Of a stretch of DNA of 64,000 bases, positions 1 to 52,500 are shown piece after piece. The DNA comes from Mycteria americana. Its lineage: Eukaryota; Chordata; Aves; Ciconiiformes; Ciconiidae. The notes beneath the pieces were generated by a model. That model saw nothing but the letters and a program-made list of their open reading frames with translations. It was not told where the DNA came from and searched no databases. Numbering within the stretch: the stretch's first letter is position 1; the number at the start of each line of letters is the position of its first letter. Where the stretch lies: NCBI RefSeq assembly GCF_035582795.1, contig NC_134368.1:992001-1056000 (forward strand), in the 5' to 3' direction. The translations under genes and the position numbers were made by a program.

Positions 1-18
1 CGCAGACGCCGCTGCTGA
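1..18 (+). CDS. Protamine, 3' end only (cut by window edge)
   Basis: The last five codons (four Arg and a Cys) and the TGA stop of a protamine gene identical to the complete copies. The rest lies outside the window. Its polyadenylation signal AATAAA is at 93-98. Confidence 0.9.
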   Translation, partial: RRRRC

Positions 19-92
19 CCTCACCCCAGCAGTGGGCGTCTGCGGAGCCGGTGGCCCCGTGACCGCCACACCACGGTGGCCCTGGCTCCCTC

Positions 93-98
93 AATAAA
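93..98 (+). terminator. Protamine polyadenylation signal AATAAA
   Basis: AATAAA is followed about 20 bp later by a GT-rich stretch, the usual arrangement at a cleavage site. Copies occur at 1804, 3515, 5225, 6936, 8646, 10356, 12066 and 13776. Each serves the protamine gene that ends just before it. Confidence 0.8.
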
Positions 99-284
99 GC
101 TGGAATGATTGCATGTGCTGTGTTGTGTCTTCCTTGTGTCCCCGTGCGCCGCCCGCGTGGACCAGGGCTGGCACTCCGTGTCTACTGGGGCTGCGTGTCC
201 CCTGTGTGCACGTGTCCAGGACCAGCGCACGTCTCCAGGGATGCAGGTGGCCCAGCCTGCCTGCTCCCGTGCTGGCTCTCACCC

Positions 285-510
285 CCGTCTCCACGTGCCA
301 GCCCGTCTCCACGGCCCCAGTACGTCTCCATGGCCCCAGCCCATCTCCACGTCCCAGCCCATCTCCACGCCCCCAGCCCGTCCCCGCATCCCCGGCCCAT
401 CTCCACCTCCCAGTCCACCTTCACCTCCCCACACCGTTGCCATATCCCAGCCCAGCTCCACGTCCCAGCCTGTCTCCACGTCCCCAGCCCACCTGCATGT
501 CCCCAGCCCA
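285..510 (+). repeat. Pyrimidine-rich minisatellite within each protamine unit
   Basis: Imperfect repeats of about 15-20 bp on the theme CCCAGCCCATCTCCACGTC. Present at the same unit offset in all nine copies. The array breaks off inside this block in the ninth copy. Confidence 0.8.
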
Positions 511-514
511 TCTC

Positions 515-780
515 CAGGTCCAGAAGGACATGGGGCTCTTGGAGCCGCGCCAGAGGAGGGCCACCAAAATGATGCGAGGGCTGGAGCACCTCTCCTAGGA
601 GGACAGCCTGAGAGAGTTGGCCTTCTTCAGCCTGCAGAAGAGAAGGCTGCGGGGAGACCTTCTAGCAGCCTTCCAGTACTTCAAGGGGGGCTCTAGGAAA
701 GACACGGACAGACTTTTTTTAGCAAGGCCTCTTGTGACGGCACGGGGAGCCATGGTTTGAAGCTAAGGGAGGGCAGGGGC
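515..780 (+). mobile_element. Truncated CR1 LINE fragment, unit 1
   Basis: The translation resembles the C-terminal end of CR1 ORF2 (motifs [35 protein letters not shown]) interrupted by a TAG stop. CR1 is the dominant bird LINE. It is truncated at both ends and present at the same offset in all eight full units, so it inserted before the array expanded. Confidence 0.8.
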
Positions 781-1141
781 TCCATTTGGGGAAGCCCTTT
801 GGGGACAGCCCATCCCCATGGCACCGTGAGGCAGGCGGGGGCTTGGGCAGGACCCGGCTCAGCCCCCCCGTCCCCGAGCCCACCAGCCCCAGCGCTGCCA
901 GCCCTTGCGCCCCGGGACTGTGTCCCCGCCAGCCTGGGGGACCATGGCGGGGGCAGGTGACCACGGCACCCATGGCTCTCCCCAGGCTCCAGCTGTGGGA
1001 CCCTCCTCTTCCTCCTGCACTACCACACGCTCCTGGCATCCACACCCGGGGGACAAGCAACGCTGAGCGCCTGCGCCCGTCACCCTTCCCAGCCCCGCCT
1101 GCAGGCACCAAGAGCTGGGACCATGGCGACAGCCAGCACCA

Positions 1142-1172
<31 letters not shown>

Positions 1173-1446
1173 TGCTCCCGGCACCTCTGGCCCTTTGCCG
1201 CCTCCTCCCGCCGCGCTGCCTGCGCTGCCGCTCGGCCCGGGGGCTCCTTTTGCGTCTCCTGTGCCGGGGCAGTGACCAGCGCACCTGCCGCCACACGGTG
1301 CCGGTGACGCGGGGCCGGTGCTGCTGCGGTGCCGCCACCCTCCTCCTGCGGGCTGGGGCTGGCCGGTCGCCATGGAGCCCGCTCGTCGCCGGGCGGCACC
1401 GTGGGGACACTGTGATGCCACCGGTGAGGTTGACGCTGTAACGCGC

Positions 1447-1484
1447 TGACATCACAAAGGGCCTCGCCCGGCACCCCCATAAAA
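1447..1484 (+). promoter_or_regulatory. Protamine core promoter: CRE-like site plus TATA-like box
   Basis: TGACATCAC (1447-1455) resembles a cAMP-response element, the site used by CREM in spermatid genes. ATAAAA (1479-1484) lies 62 bp before the ATG. Both repeat in every copy. The CRE-like sites start at 3158, 4868, 6579, 8289, 9999, 11709 and 13419, and the TATA-like boxes at 3190, 4900, 6611, 8321, 10031, 11741 and 13451. Use by CREM is inferred from the motif and gene class. Confidence 0.65.
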
Positions 1485-1540
1485 GCGGGCTGGGGGGCGC
1501 AGAGCCACAGCTCCCTGTCAGGACAGGGTGGCCGGCCAGC

Positions 1541-1729
1541 ATGGCCCGGTCCCGGCGCAGCAGGCTCCGCAGCAGGAGCCGGCGGCGCCGCCACCACCCA
1601 GACCATGACGGGACGCGTCCTCGCCGCCGGTACAGGAGGACCTCACGCCGGCCTGGGGTACTCAGCCGCAGGCGGCGGTATAGGAGGACCCGCCGCCGGC
1701 GGCGTGGGACGCGCAGACGCCGCTGCTGA
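1541..1729 (+). CDS. Avian-type protamine (galline-like sperm nuclear basic protein), copy 1
   Basis: This 62-residue protein has 33 arginines and no lysine. It begins MARSRRSRLRSRS, close to the galline N-terminus, and has the Arg clusters separated by Ser, Thr, Tyr and Gly typical of bird protamines. Protamines replace histones in late spermatids and condense sperm DNA through Arg-phosphate contacts in the nucleus. Unlike galline as I know it, it has an internal His/Asp-rich stretch (HHPDHDG, residues 18-24) and ends in Cys rather than Tyr. The ATG follows a TATA-like box by about 60 bp. AATAAA lies 75 bp after the stop, so this is a compact single-exon gene. All eight full copies encode the identical protein. 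The family call is firm; exact orthology would need a search. Confidence 0.93.
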   Translation: MARSRRSRLRSRSRRRRHHPDHDGTRPRRRYRRTSRRPGVLSRRRRYRRTRRRRRGTRRRRC

Positions 1730-2225
1730 CCTCACCCCAGCAGTGGGCGTCTGCGGAGCCGGTGGCCCCGTGACCGCCACACCACGGTGGCCCTGGCTCC
1801 CTCAATAAAGCTGGAATGATTGCATGTGCTGTGTTGTGTCTTCCTTGTGTCCCCGTGCGCCGCCCGCGTGGACCAGGGCTGGCACTCCGTGTCTACTGGG
1901 GCTGCGTGTCCCCTGTGTGCACGTGTCCAGGACCAGCGCACGTCTCCAGGGATGCAGGTGGCCCAGCCTGCCTGCTCCCGTGCTGGCTCTCACCCCCGTC
2001 TCCACGTGCCAGCCCGTCTCCACGGCCCCAGTACGTCTCCATGGCCCCAGCCCATCTCCACGTCCCAGCCCATCTCCACGCCCCCAGCCCGTCCCCGCAT
2101 CCCCGGCCCATCTCCACCTCCCAGTCCACCTTCACCTCCCCACACCGTTGCCATATCCCAGCCCAGCTCCACGTCCCAGCCTGTCTCCACGTCCCCAGCC
2201 CACCTGCATGTCCCCAGCCCATCTC

Positions 2226-2491
2226 CAGGTCCAGAAGGACATGGGGCTCTTGGAGCCGCGCCAGAGGAGGGCCACCAAAATGATGCGAGGGCTGGAGCAC
2301 CTCTCCTAGGAGGACAGCCTGAGAGAGTTGGCCTTCTTCAGCCTGCAGAAGAGAAGGCTGCGGGGAGACCTTCTAGCAGCCTTCCAGTACTTCAAGGGGG
2401 GCTCTAGGAAAGACACGGACAGACTTTTTTTAGCAAGGCCTCTTGTGACGGCACGGGGAGCCATGGTTTGAAGCTAAGGGAGGGCAGGGGC
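2226..2491 (+). mobile_element. Truncated CR1 fragment, unit 2
   Basis: Copy of the fragment described for unit 1, with the same TAG-interrupted frame. Confidence 0.8.
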
Positions 2492-2852
2492 TCCATTTGG
2501 GGAAGCCCTGTGGGGACAGCCCATCCCCATGGCACCGTGAGGCAGGCGGGGGCTTGGGCAGGACCCGGCTCAGCCCCCCCGTCCCCGAGCCCACCAGCCC
2601 CAGCGCTGCCAGCCCTTGCGCCCCGGGACTGTGTCCCCGCCAGCCTGGGGGACCATGGCGGGGGCAGGTGACCACGGCACCCATGGCTCTCCCCAGGCTC
2701 CAGCTGTGGGACCCTCCTCTTCCTCCTGCACTACCACACGCTCCTGGCATCCACACCCGGGGGACAAGCAACGCTGAGCGCCTGCGCCCGTCACCCTTCC
2801 CAGCCCCGCCTGCAGGCACCAAGAGCTGGGACCATGGCGACAGCCAGCACCA

Positions 2853-2883
<31 letters not shown>

Positions 2884-3251
2884 TGCTCCCGGCACCTCTG
2901 GCCCTTTGCCGCCTCCTCCCGCCGCGCTGCCTGCGCTGCCGCTCGGCCCGGGGGCTCCTTTTGCGTCTCCTGTGCCGGGGCAGTGACCAGCGCACCTGCC
3001 GCCACACGGTGCCGGTGACGCGGGGCCGGTGCTGCTGCGGTGCCGCCACCCTCCTCCTGCGGGCTGGGGCTGGCCGGTCGCCATGGAGCCCGCTCGTCGC
3101 CGGGCGGCACCGTGGGGACACTGTGATGCCACCGGTGAGGTTGACGCTGTAACGCGCTGACATCACAAAGGGCCTCGCCCGGCACCCCCATAAAAGCGGG
3201 CTGGGGGGCGCAGAGCCACAGCTCCCTGTCAGGACAGGGTGGCCGGCCAGC

Positions 3252-3440
3252 ATGGCCCGGTCCCGGCGCAGCAGGCTCCGCAGCAGGAGCCGGCGGCGCC
3301 GCCACCACCCAGACCATGACGGGACGCGTCCTCGCCGCCGGTACAGGAGGACCTCACGCCGGCCTGGGGTACTCAGCCGCAGGCGGCGGTATAGGAGGAC
3401 CCGCCGCCGGCGGCGTGGGACGCGCAGACGCCGCTGCTGA
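3252..3440 (+). CDS. Avian-type protamine, copy 2
   Basis: Same 62-residue product as copy 1. This unit has the C7 run and matches the array consensus. Unit 1 differs from it by a T at 799. Confidence 0.93.
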   Translation: MARSRRSRLRSRSRRRRHHPDHDGTRPRRRYRRTSRRPGVLSRRRRYRRTRRRRRGTRRRRC

Positions 3441-3936
3441 CCTCACCCCAGCAGTGGGCGTCTGCGGAGCCGGTGGCCCCGTGACCGCCACACCACGGTG
3501 GCCCTGGCTCCCTCAATAAAGCTGGAATGATTGCATGTGCTGTGTTGTGTCTTCCTTGTGTCCCCGTGCGCCGCCCGCGTGGACCAGGGCTGGCACTCCG
3601 TGTCTACTGGGGCTGCGTGTCCCCTGTGTGCACGTGTCCAGGACCAGCGCACGTCTCCAGGGATGCAGGTGGCCCAGCCTGCCTGCTCCCGTGCTGGCTC
3701 TCACCCCCGTCTCCACGTGCCAGCCCGTCTCCACGGCCCCAGTACGTCTCCATGGCCCCAGCCCATCTCCACGTCCCAGCCCATCTCCACGCCCCCAGCC
3801 CGTCCCCGCATCCCCGGCCCATCTCCACCTCCCAGTCCACCTTCACCTCCCCACACCGTTGCCATATCCCAGCCCAGCTCCACGTCCCAGCCTGTCTCCA
3901 CGTCCCCAGCCCACCTGCATGTCCCCAGCCCATCTC

Positions 3937-4202
3937 CAGGTCCAGAAGGACATGGGGCTCTTGGAGCCGCGCCAGAGGAGGGCCACCAAAATGATGCGAG
4001 GGCTGGAGCACCTCTCCTAGGAGGACAGCCTGAGAGAGTTGGCCTTCTTCAGCCTGCAGAAGAGAAGGCTGCGGGGAGACCTTCTAGCAGCCTTCCAGTA
4101 CTTCAAGGGGGGCTCTAGGAAAGACACGGACAGACTTTTTTTAGCAAGGCCTCTTGTGACGGCACGGGGAGCCATGGTTTGAAGCTAAGGGAGGGCAGGG
4201 GC
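3937..4202 (+). mobile_element. Truncated CR1 fragment, unit 3
   Basis: Same fragment and ends as in unit 1. Confidence 0.8.
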
Positions 4203-4562
4203 TCCATTTGGGGAAGCCCTGTGGGGACAGCCCATCCCCATGGCACCGTGAGGCAGGCGGGGGCTTGGGCAGGACCCGGCTCAGCCCCCCGTCCCCGAGC
4301 CCACCAGCCCCAGCGCTGCCAGCCCTTGCGCCCCGGGACTGTGTCCCCGCCAGCCTGGGGGACCATGGCGGGGGCAGGTGACCACGGCACCCATGGCTCT
4401 CCCCAGGCTCCAGCTGTGGGACCCTCCTCTTCCTCCTGCACTACCACACGCTCCTGGCATCCACACCCGGGGGACAAGCAACGCTGAGCGCCTGCGCCCG
4501 TCACCCTTCCCAGCCCCGCCTGCAGGCACCAAGAGCTGGGACCATGGCGACAGCCAGCACCA

Positions 4563-4593
<31 letters not shown>

Positions 4594-4961
4594 TGCTCCC
4601 GGCACCTCTGGCCCTTTGCCGCCTCCTCCCGCCGCGCTGCCTGCGCTGCCGCTCGGCCCGGGGGCTCCTTTTGCGTCTCCTGTGCCGGGGCAGTGACCAG
4701 CGCACCTGCCGCCACACGGTGCCGGTGACGCGGGGCCGGTGCTGCTGCGGTGCCGCCACCCTCCTCCTGCGGGCTGGGGCTGGCCGGTCGCCATGGAGCC
4801 CGCTCGTCGCCGGGCGGCACCGTGGGGACACTGTGATGCCACCGGTGAGGTTGACGCTGTAACGCGCTGACATCACAAAGGGCCTCGCCCGGCACCCCCA
4901 TAAAAGCGGGCTGGGGGGCGCAGAGCCACAGCTCCCTGTCAGGACAGGGTGGCCGGCCAGC

Positions 4962-5150
4962 ATGGCCCGGTCCCGGCGCAGCAGGCTCCGCAGCAGGAGC
5001 CGGCGGCGCCGCCACCACCCAGACCATGACGGGACGCGTCCTCGCCGCCGGTACAGGAGGACCTCACGCCGGCCTGGGGTACTCAGCCGCAGGCGGCGGT
5101 ATAGGAGGACCCGCCGCCGGCGGCGTGGGACGCGCAGACGCCGCTGCTGA
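4962..5150 (+). CDS. Avian-type protamine, copy 3
   Basis: Identical coding sequence to copy 1. The unit is one base shorter because its poly-C run is C6. Confidence 0.93.
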   Translation: MARSRRSRLRSRSRRRRHHPDHDGTRPRRRYRRTSRRPGVLSRRRRYRRTRRRRRGTRRRRC

Positions 5151-5646
5151 CCTCACCCCAGCAGTGGGCGTCTGCGGAGCCGGTGGCCCCGTGACCGCCA
5201 CACCACGGTGGCCCTGGCTCCCTCAATAAAGCTGGAATGATTGCATGTGCTGTGTTGTGTCTTCCTTGTGTCCCCGTGCGCCGCCCGCGTGGACCAGGGC
5301 TGGCACTCCGTGTCTACTGGGGCTGCGTGTCCCCTGTGTGCACGTGTCCAGGACCAGCGCACGTCTCCAGGGATGCAGGTGGCCCAGCCTGCCTGCTCCC
5401 GTGCTGGCTCTCACCCCCGTCTCCACGTGCCAGCCCGTCTCCACGGCCCCAGTACGTCTCCATGGCCCCAGCCCATCTCCACGTCCCAGCCCATCTCCAC
5501 GCCCCCAGCCCGTCCCCGCATCCCCGGCCCATCTCCACCTCCCAGTCCACCTTCACCTCCCCACACCGTTGCCATATCCCAGCCCAGCTCCACGTCCCAG
5601 CCTGTCTCCACGTCCCCAGCCCACCTGCATGTCCCCAGCCCATCTC

Positions 5647-5912
5647 CAGGTCCAGAAGGACATGGGGCTCTTGGAGCCGCGCCAGAGGAGGGCCACCAAA
5701 ATGATGCGAGGGCTGGAGCACCTCTCCTAGGAGGACAGCCTGAGAGAGTTGGCCTTCTTCAGCCTGCAGAAGAGAAGGCTGCGGGGAGACCTTCTAGCAG
5801 CCTTCCAGTACTTCAAGGGGGGCTCTAGGAAAGACACGGACAGACTTTTTTTAGCAAGGCCTCTTGTGACGGCACGGGGAGCCATGGTTTGAAGCTAAGG
5901 GAGGGCAGGGGC
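5647..5912 (+). mobile_element. Truncated CR1 fragment, unit 4
   Basis: Same fragment and ends as in unit 1. Confidence 0.8.
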
Positions 5913-6273
5913 TCCATTTGGGGAAGCCCTGTGGGGACAGCCCATCCCCATGGCACCGTGAGGCAGGCGGGGGCTTGGGCAGGACCCGGCTCAGCCCCCC
6001 CGTCCCCGAGCCCACCAGCCCCAGCGCTGCCAGCCCTTGCGCCCCGGGACTGTGTCCCCGCCAGCCTGGGGGACCATGGCGGGGGCAGGTGACCACGGCA
6101 CCCATGGCTCTCCCCAGGCTCCAGCTGTGGGACCCTCCTCTTCCTCCTGCACTACCACACGCTCCTGGCATCCACACCCGGGGGACAAGCAACGCTGAGC
6201 GCCTGCGCCCGTCACCCTTCCCAGCCCCGCCTGCAGGCACCAAGAGCTGGGACCATGGCGACAGCCAGCACCA

Positions 6274-6304
<31 letters not shown>

Positions 6305-6672
6305 TGCTCCCGGCACCTCTGGCCCTTTGCCGCCTCCTCCCGCCGCGCTGCCTGCGCTGCCGCTCGGCCCGGGGGCTCCTTTTGCGTCTCCTGTGCCGGG
6401 GCAGTGACCAGCGCACCTGCCGCCACACGGTGCCGGTGACGCGGGGCCGGTGCTGCTGCGGTGCCGCCACCCTCCTCCTGCGGGCTGGGGCTGGCCGGTC
6501 GCCATGGAGCCCGCTCGTCGCCGGGCGGCACCGTGGGGACACTGTGATGCCACCGGTGAGGTTGACGCTGTAACGCGCTGACATCACAAAGGGCCTCGCC
6601 CGGCACCCCCATAAAAGCGGGCTGGGGGGCGCAGAGCCACAGCTCCCTGTCAGGACAGGGTGGCCGGCCAGC

Positions 6673-6861
6673 ATGGCCCGGTCCCGGCGCAGCAGGCTCC
6701 GCAGCAGGAGCCGGCGGCGCCGCCACCACCCAGACCATGACGGGACGCGTCCTCGCCGCCGGTACAGGAGGACCTCACGCCGGCCTGGGGTACTCAGCCG
6801 CAGGCGGCGGTATAGGAGGACCCGCCGCCGGCGGCGTGGGACGCGCAGACGCCGCTGCTGA
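6673..6861 (+). CDS. Avian-type protamine, copy 4
   Basis: Identical coding sequence. The unit has C7 like copies 1 and 2, so the two length classes are interleaved along the array. Confidence 0.93.
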   Translation: MARSRRSRLRSRSRRRRHHPDHDGTRPRRRYRRTSRRPGVLSRRRRYRRTRRRRRGTRRRRC

Positions 6862-7357
6862 CCTCACCCCAGCAGTGGGCGTCTGCGGAGCCGGTGGCCC
6901 CGTGACCGCCACACCACGGTGGCCCTGGCTCCCTCAATAAAGCTGGAATGATTGCATGTGCTGTGTTGTGTCTTCCTTGTGTCCCCGTGCGCCGCCCGCG
7001 TGGACCAGGGCTGGCACTCCGTGTCTACTGGGGCTGCGTGTCCCCTGTGTGCACGTGTCCAGGACCAGCGCACGTCTCCAGGGATGCAGGTGGCCCAGCC
7101 TGCCTGCTCCCGTGCTGGCTCTCACCCCCGTCTCCACGTGCCAGCCCGTCTCCACGGCCCCAGTACGTCTCCATGGCCCCAGCCCATCTCCACGTCCCAG
7201 CCCATCTCCACGCCCCCAGCCCGTCCCCGCATCCCCGGCCCATCTCCACCTCCCAGTCCACCTTCACCTCCCCACACCGTTGCCATATCCCAGCCCAGCT
7301 CCACGTCCCAGCCTGTCTCCACGTCCCCAGCCCACCTGCATGTCCCCAGCCCATCTC

Positions 7358-7623
7358 CAGGTCCAGAAGGACATGGGGCTCTTGGAGCCGCGCCAGAGGA
7401 GGGCCACCAAAATGATGCGAGGGCTGGAGCACCTCTCCTAGGAGGACAGCCTGAGAGAGTTGGCCTTCTTCAGCCTGCAGAAGAGAAGGCTGCGGGGAGA
7501 CCTTCTAGCAGCCTTCCAGTACTTCAAGGGGGGCTCTAGGAAAGACACGGACAGACTTTTTTTAGCAAGGCCTCTTGTGACGGCACGGGGAGCCATGGTT
7601 TGAAGCTAAGGGAGGGCAGGGGC
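7358..7623 (+). mobile_element. Truncated CR1 fragment, unit 5
   Basis: Same fragment and ends as in unit 1. Confidence 0.8.
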
Positions 7624-7983
7624 TCCATTTGGGGAAGCCCTGTGGGGACAGCCCATCCCCATGGCACCGTGAGGCAGGCGGGGGCTTGGGCAGGACCCGG
7701 CTCAGCCCCCCGTCCCCGAGCCCACCAGCCCCAGCGCTGCCAGCCCTTGCGCCCCGGGACTGTGTCCCCGCCAGCCTGGGGGACCATGGCGGGGGCAGGT
7801 GACCACGGCACCCATGGCTCTCCCCAGGCTCCAGCTGTGGGACCCTCCTCTTCCTCCTGCACTACCACACGCTCCTGGCATCCACACCCGGGGGACAAGC
7901 AACGCTGAGCGCCTGCGCCCGTCACCCTTCCCAGCCCCGCCTGCAGGCACCAAGAGCTGGGACCATGGCGACAGCCAGCACCA

Positions 7984-8014
<31 letters not shown>

Positions 8015-8382
8015 TGCTCCCGGCACCTCTGGCCCTTTGCCGCCTCCTCCCGCCGCGCTGCCTGCGCTGCCGCTCGGCCCGGGGGCTCCTTTTGCGTCTC
8101 CTGTGCCGGGGCAGTGACCAGCGCACCTGCCGCCACACGGTGCCGGTGACGCGGGGCCGGTGCTGCTGCGGTGCCGCCACCCTCCTCCTGCGGGCTGGGG
8201 CTGGCCGGTCGCCATGGAGCCCGCTCGTCGCCGGGCGGCACCGTGGGGACACTGTGATGCCACCGGTGAGGTTGACGCTGTAACGCGCTGACATCACAAA
8301 GGGCCTCGCCCGGCACCCCCATAAAAGCGGGCTGGGGGGCGCAGAGCCACAGCTCCCTGTCAGGACAGGGTGGCCGGCCAGC

Positions 8383-8571
8383 ATGGCCCGGTCCCGGCGC
8401 AGCAGGCTCCGCAGCAGGAGCCGGCGGCGCCGCCACCACCCAGACCATGACGGGACGCGTCCTCGCCGCCGGTACAGGAGGACCTCACGCCGGCCTGGGG
8501 TACTCAGCCGCAGGCGGCGGTATAGGAGGACCCGCCGCCGGCGGCGTGGGACGCGCAGACGCCGCTGCTGA
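8383..8571 (+). CDS. Avian-type protamine, copy 5
   Basis: Identical coding sequence. C6 unit with no private substitution noticed. Confidence 0.93.
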   Translation: MARSRRSRLRSRSRRRRHHPDHDGTRPRRRYRRTSRRPGVLSRRRRYRRTRRRRRGTRRRRC

Positions 8572-9067
8572 CCTCACCCCAGCAGTGGGCGTCTGCGGAG
8601 CCGGTGGCCCCGTGACCGCCACACCACGGTGGCCCTGGCTCCCTCAATAAAGCTGGAATGATTGCATGTGCTGTGTTGTGTCTTCCTTGTGTCCCCGTGC
8701 GCCGCCCGCGTGGACCAGGGCTGGCACTCCGTGTCTACTGGGGCTGCGTGTCCCCTGTGTGCACGTGTCCAGGACCAGCGCACGTCTCCAGGGATGCAGG
8801 TGGCCCAGCCTGCCTGCTCCCGTGCTGGCTCTCACCCCCGTCTCCACGTGCCAGCCCGTCTCCACGGCCCCAGTACGTCTCCATGGCCCCAGCCCATCTC
8901 CACGTCCCAGCCCATCTCCACGCCCCCAGCCCGTCCCCGCATCCCCGGCCCATCTCCACCTCCCAGTCCACCTTCACCTCCCCACACCGTTGCCATATCC
9001 CAGCCCAGCTCCACGTCCCAGCCTGTCTCCACGTCCCCAGCCCACCTGCATGTCCCCAGCCCATCTC

Positions 9068-9333
9068 CAGGTCCAGAAGGACATGGGGCTCTTGGAGCCG
9101 CGCCAGAGGAGGGCCACCAAAATGATGCGAGGGCTGGAGCACCTCTCCTAGGAGGACAGCCTGAGAGAGTTGGCCTTCTTCAGCCTGCAGAAGAGAAGGC
9201 TGCGGGGAGACCTTCTAGCAGCCTTCCAGTACTTCAAGGGGGGCTCTAGGAAAGACACGGACAGACTTTTTTTAGCACGGCCTCTTGTGACGGCACGGGG
9301 AGCCATGGTTTGAAGCTAAGGGAGGGCAGGGGC
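9068..9333 (+). mobile_element. Truncated CR1 fragment, unit 6
   Basis: As unit 1, but with C at 9278 after the T run. Confidence 0.8.
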
Positions 9334-9693
9334 TCCATTTGGGGAAGCCCTGTGGGGACAGCCCGTCCCCATGGCACCGTGAGGCAGGCGGGGGCTTGGG
9401 CAGGACCCGGCTCAGCCCCCCGTCCCCGAGCCCACCAGCCCCAGCGCTGCCAGCCCTTGCGCCCCGGGACTGTGTCCCCGCCAGCCTGGGGGACCATGGC
9501 GGGGGCAGGTGACCACGGCACCCATGGCTCTCCCCAGGCTCCAGCTGTGGGACCCTCCTCTTCCTCCTGCACTACCACACGCTCCTGGCATCCACACCCG
9601 GGGGACAAGCAACGCTGAGCGCCTGCGCCCGTCACCCTTCCCAGCCCCGCCTGCAGGCACCAAGAGCTGGGACCATGGCGACAGCCAGCACCA

Positions 9694-9724
<31 letters not shown>

Positions 9725-10092
9725 TGCTCCCGGCACCTCTGGCCCTTTGCCGCCTCCTCCCGCCGCGCTGCCTGCGCTGCCGCTCGGCCCGGGGGCTCCT
9801 TTTGCGTCTCCTGTGCCGGGGCAGTGACCAGCGCACCTGCCGCCACACGGTGCCGGTGACGCGGGGCCGGTGCTGCTGCGGTGCCGCCACCCTCCTCCTG
9901 CGGGCTGGGGCTGGCCGGTCGCCATGGAGCCCGCTCGTCGCCGGGCGGCACCGTGGGGACACTGTGATGCCACCGGTGAGGTTGACGCTGTAACGCGCTG
10001 ACATCACAAAGGGCCTCGCCCGGCACCCCCATAAAAGCGGGCTGGGGGGCGCAGAGCCACAGCTCCCTGTCAGGACAGGGTGGCCGGCCAGC

Positions 10093-10281
10093 ATGGCCCG
10101 GTCCCGGCGCAGCAGGCTCCGCAGCAGGAGCCGGCGGCGCCGCCACCACCCAGACCATGACGGGACGCGTCCTCGCCGCCGGTACAGGAGGACCTCACGC
10201 CGGCCTGGGGTACTCAGCCGCAGGCGGCGGTATAGGAGGACCCGCCGCCGGCGGCGTGGGACGCGCAGACGCCGCTGCTGA
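10093..10281 (+). CDS. Avian-type protamine, copy 6
   Basis: Identical coding sequence. The upstream spacer carries C at 9278 (A in most copies) and G at 9365 (A in most copies). Confidence 0.93.
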   Translation: MARSRRSRLRSRSRRRRHHPDHDGTRPRRRYRRTSRRPGVLSRRRRYRRTRRRRRGTRRRRC

Positions 10282-10777
10282 CCTCACCCCAGCAGTGGGC
10301 GTCTGCGGAGCCGGTGGCCCCGTGACCGCCACACCACGGTGGCCCTGGCTCCCTCAATAAAGCTGGAATGATTGCATGTGCTGTGTTGTGTCTTCCTTGT
10401 GTCCCCGTGCGCCGCCCGCGTGGACCAGGGCTGGCACTCCGTGTCTACTGGGGCTGCGTGTCCCCTGTGTGCACGTGTCCAGGACCAGCGCACGTCTCCA
10501 GGGATGCAGGTGGCCCAGCCTGCCTGCTCCCGTGCTGGCTCTCACCCCCGTCTCCACGTGCCAGCCCGTCTCCACGGCCCCAGTACGTCTCCATGGCCCC
10601 AGCCCATCTCCACGTCCCAGCCCATCTCCACGCCCCCAGCCCGTCCCCGCATCCCCGGCCCATCTCCACCTCCCAGTCCACCTTCACCTCCCCACACCGT
10701 TGCCATATCCCAGCCCAGCTCCACGTCCCAGCCTGTCTCCACGTCCCCAGCCCACCTGCATGTCCCCAGCCCATCTC

Positions 10778-11043
10778 CAGGTCCAGAAGGACATGGGGCT
10801 CTTGGAGCCGCGCCAGAGGAGGGCCACCAAAATGATGCGAGGGCTGGAGCACCTCTCCTAGGAGGACAGCCTGAGAGAGTTGGCCTTCTTCAGCCTGCAG
10901 AAGAGAAGGCTGCGGGGAGACCTTCTAGCAGCCTTCCAGTACTTCAAGGGGGGCTCTAGGAAAGACACGGACAGACTTTTTTTAGCAAGGCCTCTTGTGA
11001 CGGCACGGGGAGCCATGGTTTGAAGCTAAGGGAGGGCAGGGGC
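10778..11043 (+). mobile_element. Truncated CR1 fragment, unit 7
   Basis: As unit 1, with the common A at the site that is variable in units 6 and 8. Confidence 0.8.
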
Positions 11044-11398
11044 TCCATTTGGGGAAGCCCTGTGGGGACAGCCCGTCCCCATGGCACCGTGAGGCAGGCG
11101 GGGGCTTGGGCAGGACCCGGCTCAGCCCCCCGTCCCCGAGCCCACCAGCCCCAGCGCTGCCAGCCCTTGCGCCCCGGGACTGTGTCCCCGCCAGCCTGGG
11201 GGACCATGGCGGGGGCAGGTGACCACGGCACCCATGGCTCTCCCCAGGCTCCAGCTGTGGGACCCTCCTCTTCCTCCTGCACTACCACACGCTCCTGGCA
11301 TCCACACCCGGGGGACAAGCAACGCTGAGCGCCTGCGCCCGTCACCCTTCCCAGCCCCGCCTGCAGGCACCAAGAGCTGGGACCATGGCGACAGCCAG

Positions 11399-11429
<31 letters not shown>

Positions 11430-11802
11430 GCCACTGCTCCCGGCACCTCTGGCCCTTTGCCGCCTCCTCCCGCCGCGCTGCCTGCGCTGCCGCTCGGCCC
11501 GGGGGCTCCTTTTGCGTCTCCTGTGCCGGGGCAGTGACCAGCGCACCTGCCGCCACACGGTGCCGGTGACGCGGGGCCGGTGCTGCTGCGGTGCCGCCAC
11601 CCTCCTCCTGCGGGCTGGGGCTGGCCGGTCGCCATGGAGCCCGCTCGTCGCCGGGCGGCACCGTGGGGACACTGTGATGCCACCGGTGAGGTTGACGCTG
11701 TAACGCGCTGACATCACAAAGGGCCTCGCCCGGCACCCCCATAAAAGCGGGCTGGGGGGCGCAGAGCCACAGCTCCCTGTCAGGACAGGGTGGCCGGCCA
11801 GC

Positions 11803-11991
11803 ATGGCCCGGTCCCGGCGCAGCAGGCTCCGCAGCAGGAGCCGGCGGCGCCGCCACCACCCAGACCATGACGGGACGCGTCCTCGCCGCCGGTACAGGAG
11901 GACCTCACGCCGGCCTGGGGTACTCAGCCGCAGGCGGCGGTATAGGAGGACCCGCCGCCGGCGGCGTGGGACGCGCAGACGCCGCTGCTGA
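11803..11991 (+). CDS. Avian-type protamine, copy 7
   Basis: Identical coding sequence. The spacer shares G at 11075 with copy 6 but has the common A at the other variant site. A private C at 11411 lies in the triplet run. Confidence 0.93.
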   Translation: MARSRRSRLRSRSRRRRHHPDHDGTRPRRRYRRTSRRPGVLSRRRRYRRTRRRRRGTRRRRC

Positions 11992-12487
11992 CCTCACCCC
12001 AGCAGTGGGCGTCTGCGGAGCCGGTGGCCCCGTGACCGCCACACCACGGTGGCCCTGGCTCCCTCAATAAAGCTGGAATGATTGCATGTGCTGTGTTGTG
12101 TCTTCCTTGTGTCCCCGTGCGCCGCCCGCGTGGACCAGGGCTGGCACTCCGTGTCTACTGGGGCTGCGTGTCCCCTGTGTGCACGTGTCCAGGACCAGCG
12201 CACGTCTCCAGGGATGCAGGTGGCCCAGCCTGCCTGCTCCCGTGCTGGCTCTCACCCCCGTCTCCACGTGCCAGCCCGTCTCCACGGCCCCAGTACGTCT
12301 CCATGGCCCCAGCCCATCTCCACGTCCCAGCCCATCTCCACGCCCCCAGCCCGTCCCCGCATCCCCGGCCCATCTCCACGTCCCAGTCCACCTTCACCTC
12401 CCCACACCGTTGCCATATCCCAGCCCAGCTCCACGTCCCAGCCTGTCTCCACATCCCCAGCCCACCTGCATGTCCCCAGCCCATCTC

Positions 12488-12753
12488 CAGGTCCAGAAGG
12501 GCATGGGGCTCTTGGAGCCGCGCCAGAGGAGGGCCACCAAAATGATGCGAGGGCTGGAGCACCTCTCCTAGGAGGACAGCCTGAGAGAGTTGGCCTTCTT
12601 CAGCCTGCAGAAGAGAAGGCTGCGGGGAGACCTTCTAGCAGCCTTCCAGTACTTCAAGGGGGGCTCTAGGAAAGACACGGACAGACTTTTTTTAGCACGG
12701 CCTCTTGTGACGGCACGGGGAGCCATGGTTTGAAGCTAAGGGAGGGCAGGGGC
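12488..12753 (+). mobile_element. Truncated CR1 fragment, unit 8
   Basis: As unit 1, but with G at 12501 and C at 12698. The ninth, truncated unit has no CR1 fragment. Confidence 0.8.
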
Positions 12754-13113
12754 TCCATTTGGGGAAGCCCTGTGGGGACAGCCCATCCCCATGGCACCGT
12801 GAGGCAGGCGGGGGCTTGGGCAGGACCCGGCTCAGCCCCCCGTCCCCGAGCCCACCAGCCCCAGCGCTGCCAGCCCTTGCGCCCCGGGACTGTGTCCCCG
12901 CCAGCCTGGGGGACCATGGCGGGGGCAGGTGACCACGGCACCCATGGCTCTCCCCAGGCTCCAGCTGTGGGACCCTCCTCTTCCTCCTGCACTACCACAC
13001 GCTCCTGGCATCCACACCCGGGGGACAAGCAACGCTGAGCGCCTGCGCCCGTCACCCTTCCCAGCCCCGCCTGCAGGCACCAAGAGCTGGGACCATGGCG
13101 ACAGCCAGCACCA

Positions 13114-13144
<31 letters not shown>

Positions 13145-13512
13145 TGCTCCCGGCACCTCTGGCCCTTTGCCGCCTCCTCCCGCCGCGCTGCCTGCGCTGC
13201 CGCTCGGCCCGGGGGCTCCTTTTGCGTCTCCTGTGCCGGGGCAGTGACCAGCGCGCCTGCCGCCACACGGTGCCGGTGACGCGGGGCCGGTGCTGCTGCG
13301 GTGCCGCCACCCTCCTCCTGCGGGCTGGGGCTGGCCGGTCGCCATGGAGCCCGCTCGTCGCCGGGCGGCACCGTGGGGACACGGTGATGCCACCGGTGAG
13401 GTTGACGCTGTAACGCGCTGACATCACAAAGGGCCTCGCCCGGCACCCCCATAAAAGCGGGCTGGGGGGCGCAGAGCCACAGCTCCCTGTCAGGACAGGG
13501 TGGCCGGCCAGC

Positions 13513-13701
13513 ATGGCCCGGTCCCGGCGCAGCAGGCTCCGCAGCAGGAGCCGGCGGCGCCGCCACCACCCAGACCATGACGGGACGCGTCCTCGCCGCC
13601 GGTACAGGAGGACCTCACGCCGGCCTGGGGTACTCAGCCGCAGGCGGCGGTATAGGAGGACCCGCCGCCGGCGGCGTGGGACGCGCAGACGCCGCTGCTG
13701 A
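13513..13701 (+). CDS. Avian-type protamine, copy 8 (last complete)
   Basis: Identical coding sequence. Its unit is the most divergent, with private changes at 12380, 12453, 12501, 13255 and 13383. This fits weaker homogenisation at an array edge. It uses the polyadenylation signal at 13776. Confidence 0.93.
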   Translation: MARSRRSRLRSRSRRRRHHPDHDGTRPRRRYRRTSRRPGVLSRRRRYRRTRRRRRGTRRRRC

Positions 13702-14162
13702 CCTCACCCCAGCAGTGGGCGTCTGCGGAGCCGGTGGCCCCGTGACCGCCACACCACGGTGGCCCTGGCTCCCTCAATAAAGCTGGAATGATTGCATGTG
13801 CTGTGTTGTGTCTTCCTTGTGTCCCCGTGCGCCGCCCGCGTGGACCAGGGCTGGCACTCCGTGTCTACTGGGGCTGCGTGTCCCCTGTGTGCACGTGTCC
13901 AGGACCAGCGCACGTCTCCAGGGATGCAGGTGGCCCAGCCTGCCTGCTCCCGTGCTGGCTCTCACCCCCGTCTCCACGTGCCAGCCCGTCTCCACGGCCC
14001 CAGTACGTCTCCATGGCCCCAGCCCATCTCCACGTCCCAGCCCATCTCCACGCCCCCAGCCCGTCCCCGCATCCCCGGCCCATCTCCACCTCCCAGTCCA
14101 CCTTCACCTCCCCACACCGTTGCCATATCCCAGCCCAGCTCCACGTCCCAGCCTGTCTCCAC

Positions 14163-14843
14163 TCCTCCCAGCACTGGTGCCCTCCTTAAGCCATCCCCGG
14201 GCATTTCGGGCTGTGAAGGCACGCAGGGGTGGCCCTGAGCAGGCAGTCAGGTGCCACCTGCCGTCGATGCCCCAACCACTTGGGACAAGGAGCCTGGGCC
14301 ACAGTGCCACAGCAGGAAGGGGCTGCAGCTTTTGCTCACTTTTGCTCACTTTTGCTCACTTTTTCTGGCTTTTGTTCAGTTTCGGGAGAGGCCTTTTGAT
14401 GAGCCGGGTGGGAATCAGGAGCTCTCTTCTGCAGGTCCCCAGCAGGGCACTGCCACTGTCCCCATGTTGCTGGCCCGACACCAGCACTGTCTGCATATCC
14501 CAGGACAGCAGCGTCATCCCCATGTCCCCGGACACCGGTGCTGTCCCCCCCATCCCTGGCTGCCCTTTGGTCCTGTGACATCACAAGAGCCGGCAGCAGT
14601 GGGTGACAGCAGACCCTCATGTCGGGCCGGGTGCGGTGCCTGCGGGGGGATCCCTCGGTAATGGCTGGTTTGCATAAGAGCTGGGTGGGGGCAGCCCTGG
14701 CCCCCATGAGCCCAGGGACTGTCCCAGAGGGGCTGTGACCCTGCAGCGCTGGCCCTGCCCAGCTGAGCCCTGTCTCTGCTTCTCCCTGGCACAGCAAGCG
14801 CGCGGGAGCGAGCTGGGAGCGAGTGGGAGCTGGCGCCAGCAAT
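14163..14843. other. Unique flank of the protamine array
   Basis: Non-repetitive DNA right of the array break. It contains a short run of 10-bp TTTTGCTCAC repeats (about 14331-14375). No gene is recognised. Confidence 0.6.
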
Positions 14844-15191
14844 ATGCACACCGCCCTCCAGAGCTTCCTCCGGCTGCTCCACAGGTTCCTCTCCTTCGGC
14901 CTCACAGTGGCATTAGGCAACCTCCTGCTGTGCTCCACCTTCCCCTTCCTCTTCGTCCTGCTCCTGCCCCTCCTTGCACTGCGGGAACACGTGCTGCCGG
15001 CCCTGCTCATCCTCGGGAGAGTCGTGCTCCCCATCGCCGGCACCTTCCTCACCCGCCTGCTGCCAGCCCTGGCCGTCTTCCTCGCCGCACTCTTCCCGCC
15101 CGTCCACCTCCCCTGCAGTGGTGACCCCCCGTGCGGTGGGGGTTACCCCCTCTGCATGGGCACAGTCGGCACGTCCTGTGCCCTCCGGTGA
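14844..15191 (+). CDS. Unidentified hydrophobic ORF (possible small membrane protein)
   Basis: A 115-codon ORF starts at ATG 14844. Residues 1-75 are rich in Leu, Phe and Val and could form two or three membrane segments (for example LLLCSTFPFLFVLLLPLL). The tail is Cys/Gly-rich and looks like read-through into non-coding DNA. A plausible splice acceptor (pyrimidine run then CACAG) ends near 14793, and a possible donor GTGACC follows 15119, so this could be an internal exon. In mammals a small membrane-protein gene, TMEM239, lies near EBF4, but I see no residue-level match strong enough to assign it. It may be a chance ORF. Confidence 0.3.
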   Translation: MHTALQSFLRLLHRFLSFGLTVALGNLLLCSTFPFLFVLLLPLLALREHVLPALLILGRVVLPIAGTFLTRLLPALAVFLAALFPPVHLPCSGDPPCGGGYPLCMGTVGTSCALR

Positions 15192-24109: not shown

Positions 24110-43548
<19,439 letters not shown>

Positions 43549-49034: not shown

Positions 49035-49538
49035 CTAGGAGGGGGGGTGGCCGCTGTGGGAGTCCCCGCTGGCCCCCGCGCCGAGCTCGGGGCCGGCGGG
49101 CGAGGGGGACGGATGCTGCGTGTCCCGGACAAGGGGGCGAGGGTCCCCGTGGGGCTGCGGGACGGCACCCGCTTCTCGTTCCTGGGGGGCGGAGGCGTGG
49201 GGGTGAGCAGGGTGGTGGGGGCCGAGGTGCCCAGCCCCGCTGTCCTGGGAAGCCCCGCTGTCCCCCTGCTCGGGGACCACACCGTCCCCGCCGGGCAGCT
49301 CAGCCTCCTGGGGCCGAGCCGGGGCTGGGCTGGCGGCAGCTCCTCCATCCTCCGGCACCTCATCGCCGCCGGCCGGCGCTGGCCGAGCCACCCTCCCGCT
49401 GCCGGGATCCTCCTCGGCGGCCACCGGCGTGACTTGCTGGTGGCACATGGGGCACGTGTCCTGCACGTAGAGCCACTTGCGGAGGCAGGCGGCGTGGAAG
49501 AAGTGACTGCAGGGAGTGATGACGGCCACCTGCATGTC
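49035..49538 (-). CDS. RNF145-like coding exon 10
   Basis: Residues 538-704. Rest of the RING-H2 (TPCSHFFHAACLRKWLY, CPMC), then a low-complexity tail; TAG stop at 49035-49037. Confidence 0.94.
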   Translation of the reverse strand, partial: DMQVAVITPCSHFFHAACLRKWLYVQDTCPMCHQQVTPVAAEEDPGSGRVARPAPAGGDEVPEDGGAAASPAPARPQEAELPGGDGVVPEQGDSGASQDSGAGHLGPHHPAHPHASAPQEREAGAVPQPHGDPRPLVRDTQHPSPSPAGPELGAGASGDSHSGHPPS

Positions 49539-52500
49539 CTGCGGGCGGGGAGAGGACGTCACCCGCCGGGCAGGGGACCCCCGGGGCTGCCCAGAGCGGG
49601 GTCCCCCGGCGCGGCAGGGGCTCCGGCGAGGGGAGGGGGCTGACCTGGAAGCAGATGGCACAGACGTCGTTGTGGTCCCGCAGCTGCCCGCCCGTGGCCT
49701 GGGGCAGGGAGTTGATCTTCTTGGCAGCCTCGCGGCGCAGCAGAAAGCTCCTCCAGCCCGACTGAGCGCGCAGCCAGACGTTGAAGTAGGAGTGGATGAT
49801 GATGACGGAGGCACCCATCCAGCTCCACTCCCCGAAGAGGGACTCCCAGGTGCCGTAGCCCACCACGCAGACGGCCACCAGGAACTCCAGCACCCGGCTC
49901 ACCGCGTTCACGCAGTAGATGATCTCGTCCATCCGCTCCAGCGGCGTGTCCTGGAGCAGCTCCACCATGAAGAGGGCGTAGATGAAGAGGGTGCCCATCA
50001 CCTGGCGAGCGGCGGGACGGTGCCTCGTTGACGGCGGCCGGACGGCAGACCGCACGCCCCCACCCAGCGTCCCCCACTCCGGGGCTGGGTGAGGGTGACC
50101 GGGGCAGGGTCGTGGGCATGGGCCGGGCGGGGATGCCCACCCCAGGGTGCCCAGCGAGACCCCCGTCGGCGGGAGCGGGAGCTGCCGTACCTGCAGAGAG
50201 GTGAGCATGCAGCTGGAGACCAGGATCAGCAGCCAGAAATCCAGGTGGAAGAAGTGGGCGATCTTGTAGGCCATGAAGCAAGGGAAAACCAGCAAGAAGA
50301 GGCACATGCTGACGCCACGGAAATGCTTCCAGGGGCTCCTAGGGGAGGCACAGCTCAGCGGGGCCGTGCCCACCCCCCCCCCGCCCCGGGACCCCGTGCT
50401 CCCTCCGCTGGCACCGATCCTGCTCAAAAACCGGCAGCGAGGACCCGAGGAGGGGGCAGCACACGTGGAGGGCACGGGACCCAGCCTGGCTCTTCCCCAA
50501 CGCAGGGGGTGGGGGAGGACCCCCGCTGCCCCCCACCACCACCACCACGCAACCCCCGGGGGCAAGGGCTGCTCCCGGGGGGCCGGATCCTGCTGCTCTT
50601 CCTTCCCCCCGGTACCTGTTGCGGGAGGCCCCCAAGGCCAGCACGATGGGATCAGCTATCTCGATCATGGACTGCAGCGTGGAGGTCACCACGATGAAGA
50701 GGATGATGCTGAGGAGGAAGGTCCGCTGGAGGATCTGCAGGTCGAGCAGCCCCGTCTGCAGCGCCAGCAGCAGCAGCGTCACGCCCTCCGTCACCCCCCT
50801 GCCAGGAGCGGGGCGTGAGGCCGGCAGCCGCGGGCACGCGCCACGTGGCGCCGCCGTGCCCTGGTCGCCCCGCAGGGACGAGCCCCGGTCCCCGGATCCC
50901 TCGTGACACCCCCGTCCCGCCCACCCCGCGCCGGGCTCCTGCCCGCAAACAGGGCCGGGAGGGGGGATGCCCGCCCGCGCCCCCCCGCCGCGGGCTCACC
51001 TGTGCATGACGTTGCCGTTCTGGAAGGCGCCGAAGCCCAGCAGGTAAAATTTGCAGAGGTTGAGGACGCCCAAGGCGAGGTAGGAGACGGTGAAGGTGAG
51101 GCCGACGAGGGAGTAGGGCGTGCTGCAGCACTCGGCCGCGCTGCAAGGGAGCCCGGGCTGAGCGCAGGGGCCGGCGGGGGCCAGGCGGCACAAACCGGAG
51201 CCCCTGCCCCTCCTCATCCTCCTCCCGCTGCCCCCAGCTCCTGCCTGCCCCGGTCCCTACCTGCTGAGGAGGAGGAAGAGGAGGCCCTGCTGGGCCAGGG
51301 GGCTGCCGGAGGAGGTGAGGAAGGAGGAGAGCCGGAGGGAGAACAGCACCAGCCAGAAGACGAGGAAGAGGAGCGGGACGGCCAGCTGGCTCCAGAGGGA
51401 CGCCGCCAGCGCGACCAGCCGGTACACCTCCAGCGCCTGCGGGGACGGGTCGCTCAGCGGGGCCGCCCCCCGTCCCGCCCCACACGTGGGGGGCAAGGAG
51501 GCGGCGGGGGGCCCCGCCGTGCGAGGGGACGGCCCCGCAGCCAACCCTGCGTCAAGCCGGGCTCAGGATGGGAACCCCCATCCCGCAGCCCCCCCGCCCC
51601 ACAGCCCCCCACCCTACAGCCCCCAGCCCTGCAGAACCCCAAATCCCACAGCCCCCACCCTGCAGCCCCCCGTCCCGCAGCCCCCCGTCCCGCAGCCCCC
51701 CGCCCCACTCACCTGCACGACCTCCCGGCAGGCGGCGGCGAGCAGCCGGAAGGGGACGAGGACGTGGGAGCCGAGGACGTAGAGCACCTCCAGCGCGGTG
51801 AGGACGGCGGCGAAGGTGTCGAGGCCGGGCAGGGCGCGGAGGGGGAGGCCGCAGAGGCGCGCCAGCACCGGCAGCAGCGGGGCAGCGAACAGCCACGGCC
51901 GCCTGCTCCTCATCAGGAGGGAGCAGAGGGTGCAGAGGCAGAGCTGGCCTGCGCGGGGGACGGGGACGCCTGGGCACGCGGCACGACGGGGACCCCCGCG
52001 CCCCCGCCCCGGCTCCCCCGGCACGGCCACCTCGCGCCGGCCGCAGGAGAGGGGGCTCGGGGCTGGCATCGGGCGGGGGGGGCCATCCCCCTGCTCGGTG
52101 CCGAGCGGTGCGGGCGATCCGGCTCAGCCGTGCCATCGTCGCCCAGCACGCCATCGTCACCCAGCACGCCGTGCCATCGTCACCCAGCATGCCATCATCA
52201 CCCAGCACGCTGTGCCATCGTCACCCAGTACGCCGTCCCATTGTCACCCAGCACACCGTGCCATTGTCACCCAGCATGTCATGCCATCATCACCCAGCAC
52301 GCTGTGCCATCGTCACCCAGCATGCCATGCCGTCACGCAGCACACCATGCCATCGTCACCCAGCACGCCGTGCCATCGTCACCCAGCATGCCATGCCGTC
52401 ACGCAGCACACCGTGCCATCAACATCCAGCACGCCATCCCATCGTCACCCAGCACGCCATGCCACCATCACCCAGCACGTCATCCCACGGGTGACGGCTC

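Follow-up and report, generated by a model that had tools for sequence, protein, structure and literature searches.

A 265-copy tandem array of a putative protamine gene in the genome assembly of Mycteria americana

The window analysed here, a stretch of 64,000 nucleotides of the Mycteria americana genome (assembly GCF_035582795.1, contig NC_134368.1, here C4, positions 992001-1056000), opens with the right-hand end (positions 1-14172, forward strand) of a tandem array of an arginine-rich, putative protamine gene. The window holds only the tail of this array, which spans about 454 kb (C4:552495-1006172) and contains 265 copies of the open reading frame (ORF). The best explanation, for which we see somewhat better than an even chance, is a protamine macrosatellite that supplies the dose of protamine needed in sperm. 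On this account, one protamine gene whose coding region lacks introns would have become a 1.71-kb unit together with its promoter, polyadenylation (poly(A)) site and flank, and repeated unequal crossing-over would have expanded that unit to 265 copies at one locus. Gene conversion and crossing-over would keep the array nearly uniform. Many copies, presumably switched on together in spermatids, would then provide the mass of protamine that replaces the histones, a supply role that can be likened to that of the tandem arrays supplying histones.

Genome-wide counts were made on the window's own assembly (1.348 Gb in 279 contigs, with C4 measuring 92.9 Mb). The first 40 nt of the ORF, allowing up to three mismatches, matched 265 times on the forward strand and never on the reverse, and the entire 189-nt ORF, allowing up to three mismatches and no indels, returned the same counts; the controls, including a backward pattern for the 40-nt search, returned none. 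Exact matches to the ORF numbered 228 out of 265, and in a protein search the 150 candidates scored, out of 265, were all 100% identical and encoded on the plus strand of C4. The positions of copies are known among the matches listed, 100 per genome-wide count, and placement in one array comes from spacing: 105 copies lie in C4:553857-732000 and eight in the window, with room for 152 between them, which sums to 265. Since this spacing accounts for the copies beyond the matches listed, one array holds all 265, and by count and spacing none lies elsewhere in the genome at up to three mismatches.

Both ends of the array were located. The left end is at C4:552495, and on the right non-array sequence starts at the break in the last unit, at about 14162-14172 of the window, so the array is not open-ended, contrary to the original prediction. 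Its recognition of a high-copy tandem amplification stands, with eight complete units and part of another in the window. Its figure of eight or more is correct as a minimum and falls well short as an estimate, the copy number in the assembly being about 30 times what could be seen there. With head-to-tail, kilobase-sized units (265 copies of about 1.71 kb, all on one strand), the array fits the class of protein-coding macrosatellites.

The complete units in the window are 1710 or 1711 bp long and run head to tail. The window's left edge cuts an ORF of which the last 18 nt, including the stop codon, remain (1-18). Eight complete ORFs follow on the forward strand, each beginning with its ATG at the first position given: 1541-1729, 3252-3440, 4962-5150, 6673-6861, 8383-8571, 10093-10281, 11803-11991 and 13513-13701, the last being the final copy of the array. 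All eight encode the identical 62-residue protein, as had been claimed, and the alignment of the eight units has only 10 variable columns.

The predicted product is very likely a protamine. Like proteins of the galline type (about 60 residues, over half of them arginine), it is short and contains 33 arginines among its 62 residues (53%). A chance frame in GC-rich DNA can be ruled out: under an order-1 Markov null built from the unit, none of 25,336 stop-free 62-codon frames had more than 17 arginines. Its N-terminus, MARxRRSRxRSRS, agrees with that of chicken galline. Global alignment to a galline sequence scored 117.5 against 96.6 +/- 9.0 for shuffled sequences, and 36 of 2000 composition shuffles were as good or better. 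A PDB search with the protein returned no result.

Each copy appears to carry its own regulatory sequence. Upstream of copy 1 are two putative cAMP response element (CRE)-like sites, TGACGCTG (1431) and TGACATCA (1447), which occupy 1431-1454 on the forward strand and are present in the unit consensus; the second is at -94 relative to the ATG. A TATA-like element, CATAAAAG (1478-1485, forward strand), lies 63 bp upstream of the same ATG, and 253 of the 265 copies match the 34-mer TATA core exactly. The poly(A) signal AATAAA (1804-1809 for copy 1, forward strand) begins 75 nt past the stop codon, with GT-rich sequence coming after it. All 265 copies match the 44-mer of this poly(A) region exactly. 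An uninterrupted 62-codon frame with promoter-like and poly(A) sequence of its own is what a galline-type gene would be expected to show, and the earlier proposal that every copy has its own promoter and poly(A) signal agrees with these counts.

The copies are intact to the extent that they could be inspected. The DNA of 130 copies was read, and none was broken; 115 encode the identical protein and 113 are identical in DNA. Together, the 228 exact copies and 17 variants that were read are intact, and the remaining 20 are full length with up to three substitutions, as judged by pattern match. Of the first 111 units in the alignment, 76 are distinct, and pairs differ on average in 7.4 columns. 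A GCCACC repeat (window positions 1132-1172, with an equivalent site in each unit) varies in length by steps of 6 bp and could tag individual copies. The His-rich frame that includes it, upstream of the protamine ORF (a 111-aa ORF at 972-1307), was considered as a protamine-2-like gene and dropped, as it has many variants in addition to the length-variable repeat.

Variants are ordered along the array. Substitutions per pair of units number 4.2 at a separation of one unit, 3.8 at two and 6.5 at 60, and haplotypes shift with position. In addition, a nine-unit block at C4:555567-569265 recurs at C4:570975-586378, where the second copy has one extra unit (C4:577815). Seven of the nine unit pairs are identical; in the other two the differences amount to one substitution and a short indel. 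The duplicated block and the rise of distance with separation fit unequal crossing-over and gene conversion, and amplification by unequal exchange is well supported. The unit alignment, the local similarity and the block duplication are those of copies homogenised by unequal exchange, as in other macrosatellites.

The same observations bear on the possibility that the array is real but short, its length having been inflated by the assembler. The seven identical unit pairs could have come from such an error. Neighbouring units are nevertheless more alike than distant ones, and the block, where it recurs, contains an additional unit and two altered ones. Judged on the assembled sequence rather than on reads, the ordered variants and the imperfect duplication suggest that simple assembler stuttering is not the cause. 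The error reported for arrays of this kind in the human reference is the opposite one of collapse and under-representation (PMC4063668). We consider an inflated array very improbable. The original prediction allowed that the amplification might shrink to one or two copies as an artefact; at the same level of the assembly, this is not the picture obtained.

The left edge of the array offers a glimpse of its history. Adjoining it, on the minus strand at C4:551992-552189, is the degenerate 3' end of a protamine gene, poly(A) region included, which aligned with a local score of 62 compared with at most 37 in 300 shuffles. Because of this inverted remnant, the locus seems once to have held a second protamine gene in the opposite orientation.

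The selection tests drew on 121 of the 265 units, and 104 of those lie in the array's left part. None of 14 ORF variants was found in at least three copies, compared with 21 of 67 variants outside the ORF (Fisher P 0.016; CpG-stratified permutation P 0.045). The 154 bp that follow the ORF and extend through the poly(A) site contained no single-nucleotide polymorphisms (SNPs), compared with 7.2 expected at the mutation-class rates of the unit (Poisson P 0.0007, for a region chosen after looking); one unit has a 1-bp deletion there. The longest SNP-free run in the unit measures 171 bp (permutation P 0.037) and covers positions 173-343 after each ATG (window positions 1713-1883 in copy 1), from 17 nt before the end of the ORF across the 3' untranslated region (UTR) and the poly(A) site into the bases downstream. 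Its lack of SNPs could be a sign that the 3' UTR controls translation. Both tests are modest, and the ORF variants that do not spread and the SNP-free 3' stretch are hints of constraint on the array.

Several observations weigh against an array maintained for protamine dose. At the level of the protein, BLASTP against a galline sequence produced no alignment, and Pfam, at E-values up to 10, contained no match to the array protein; this galline sequence likewise has none, so the Pfam search lacks power here. The dose itself is not strictly needed, because the chicken apparently manages with two copies. In the ORF, 12 missense variants were seen with 8.6 expected from noncoding rates, and one synonymous variant with 1.9 expected (111 units), while the SNPs of the ORF numbered 14 with 12.0 expected (121 units). 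Since amino-acid variants are about as frequent as expected without selection, single copies look dispensable. The lack of broken copies was rejected as strong evidence, given that only 0.06 nonsense variants were expected, and the absence of stop codons is therefore weak evidence. CpG transitions are much commoner than other changes, a pattern suggestive of methylation in the germline and perhaps of partial silencing of the array. The test for variants in at least three copies is not significant within the CpG or the non-CpG class alone (0.53 and 0.28), and in the promoter region the number of SNPs is not significantly low (2 seen, 5.2 expected, P 0.11).

The main rival explanation is a neutral macrosatellite, in which unequal crossing-over enlarged a tandem repeat in GC-rich DNA containing a minisatellite and the gene was merely a passenger; a few copies at most would be expressed, and their number would have no function. 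The neutral missense rate and the CpG decay are as this account would have it. So is the position of the array's ends, as the right end falls inside a 19/56-bp minisatellite of the unit (284-521, forward strand) and the left end lies some 100 bp ahead of it. Comparable arrays are known in REXO1L1 (PMC4063668) and OR29G (PMC9974502). The neutral account is opposed by the failure of ORF variants to spread and by the SNP-free stretch after the ORF, and we consider it rather unlikely. As for the supply of protamine dose by the array, its fullest form would have hundreds of active, co-regulated autosomal copies, much like a histone cluster, with concerted evolution, selection on their total output (the 3' UTR and poly(A) site included) and a male dose set by array length; we offer this only tentatively, as less than an even bet.

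The chromosomal setting was examined in relation to genetic conflict. Five DMRT-domain matches were found in the genome: three on contig C32 within about 101 kb, two on C7 and none on C4. Those on C32 we take to be the Z-linked DMRT1-3 cluster. Because DMRT1-3-like matches are on C32 and not on C4, the array is probably autosomal, C4 being probably not the ancestral Z; it could be a neo-sex chromosome. The first 3 kb of C4 contain no TTAGGG, so the label 'subtelomeric' has no support. Under a conflict explanation, extra protamine copies would bias transmission or counter a driver during the packing of sperm chromatin, as proposed for the sex-chromosome sperm nuclear basic protein (SNBP) genes of flies. 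Male birds are ZZ, which also speaks against this, and the whole-genome ORF patterns counted no further gene copies outside the array. In its favour is the amplification of SNBP genes in Drosophila, where copy numbers range from 5 to >50, sex chromosomes account for 16 of 20 events and many lie in tandem arrays (PMC9917458). Conflict, sex-chromosome conflict included, has no direct support in our data, and we regard the conflict explanation as improbable.

The array lies between CPXM-like genes on its left and EBF- and RNF145-like genes on its right. On the left are carboxypeptidase exon-like segments whose PDB matches include carboxypeptidases N, D and M, and which we read as CPXM-like; a pair of adjacent ORFs for GNAT acetyltransferases, 216 and 221 aa long (C4:533369-537500, Pfam), presumably NAT8-like; and a small hydrophobic ORF without a Pfam match (C4:550887-551036). 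The first ORF on the right (14844-15191, forward strand) is also hydrophobic, encodes 115 aa, has no Pfam match and is preceded by TGACATCAC and CATAAGAG. These two flanking ORFs showed no similarity to each other by BLASTP and are possibly other testis genes. Promoter similarity between the array and neighbouring genes was equalled by 39 of 300 shuffles for the 14844-15191 ORF and by 7 of 300 in the second comparison, and was not taken as support.

Further right, EBF/COE exon-like segments occupy 25442-37829 on the reverse strand, with Pfam matches to COE1_DBD (37704-37829) and, only at E 0.012, to TIG (28248-28376), and no match for 25442-25633. We presume from position that they belong to EBF4. 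CPXM1 and EBF4 are adjacent on human 20p13. RNF145/RNF139-like exon-like segments (49410-51823, reverse strand) contain TRC8_N (49621-50004) and RING (49410-49541) by Pfam, the others being supported by coding score, and a PDB search with an RNF-like exon gave no result. Within the unit there is also a fragment (512-709, forward strand) that resembles the 3' part of a CR1 long interspersed nuclear element and is putatively derived from one. An Rfam search of window positions 1-5200 gave no result.

Elsewhere in the assembly, 31 PHF7-like matches to a human query were found (the strongest with E 1.9e-13 and 39% identity), with clusters of weak matches at C23:1310140-1514844 and C11:5733192-5760760. 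The PHF7 family, which acts in the exchange of histones for protamines, is reported to be expanded in turkey and chicken (PMC10360393).

Protamine genes are normally single or few and dose-sensitive for male fertility, and chicken galline has two closely linked genes. Both the array protein and the gallines of chicken and quail are short and arginine-rich, start with MAR-RRSR-RSRS and have a coding part without an intron. The array protein differs in having one C-terminal cysteine and an HHPDHDGTRP stretch, and its gene in being present in 265 copies rather than as two linked genes per haploid genome. Tandem histone arrays resemble it as a high-copy supply of a DNA-packing protein, but encode histones and have several genes per unit. 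The array is a natural system in which to study how far the number of copies determines protamine dose, the compaction of sperm heads and fertility. Drift, selection on dosage and conflict away from sex chromosomes can likewise be compared there as causes of array growth. The locus may further explain why others of its kind get missed, since arrays tend to collapse in assemblies.

Literature searches, covering open-licence PMC papers, found no report of a protamine array in birds among the papers listed. Among known systems are the amplified SNBP genes of Drosophila (tHMG, Mst77F/Mst77Y, Prtl99C and others), which are sperm chromatin genes in young tandem arrays, with homogenised copies in tHMG (PMC9917458, PMC4478544). 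They differ from the array in that the proteins are unrelated, the copies far fewer and the loci mostly sex-linked. A review ties the growth of multigene families mainly to sex-chromosome conflict (PMC10618873). In primates, REXO1L1 and CT47 likewise form tens to hundreds of tandem gene-containing units, with a mean of 171 REXO1L1 copies in humans and about 860 in one gorilla sample (PMC4063668), but their products are not sperm chromatin proteins. The complete chicken genome contains testis-expressed amplicons and genes at high copy number: OR29G is present in 386 intact copies, and tandem satellite expansion has produced 52 repeats of a 5,648-bp unit carrying HINT1W (PMC9974502). These differ in lying in the pericentromeric heterochromatin of dot chromosomes or on the W, and the paper has 0 occurrences of protamine. 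Large arrays of testis genes in chicken and SNBP amplification in Drosophila are thus already known, and the present array stands out by its gene and its scale: its 265 copies would exceed those of every amplified sperm nuclear protein gene in the literature compared, where the maximum, in flies, is >50 (PMC9917458).

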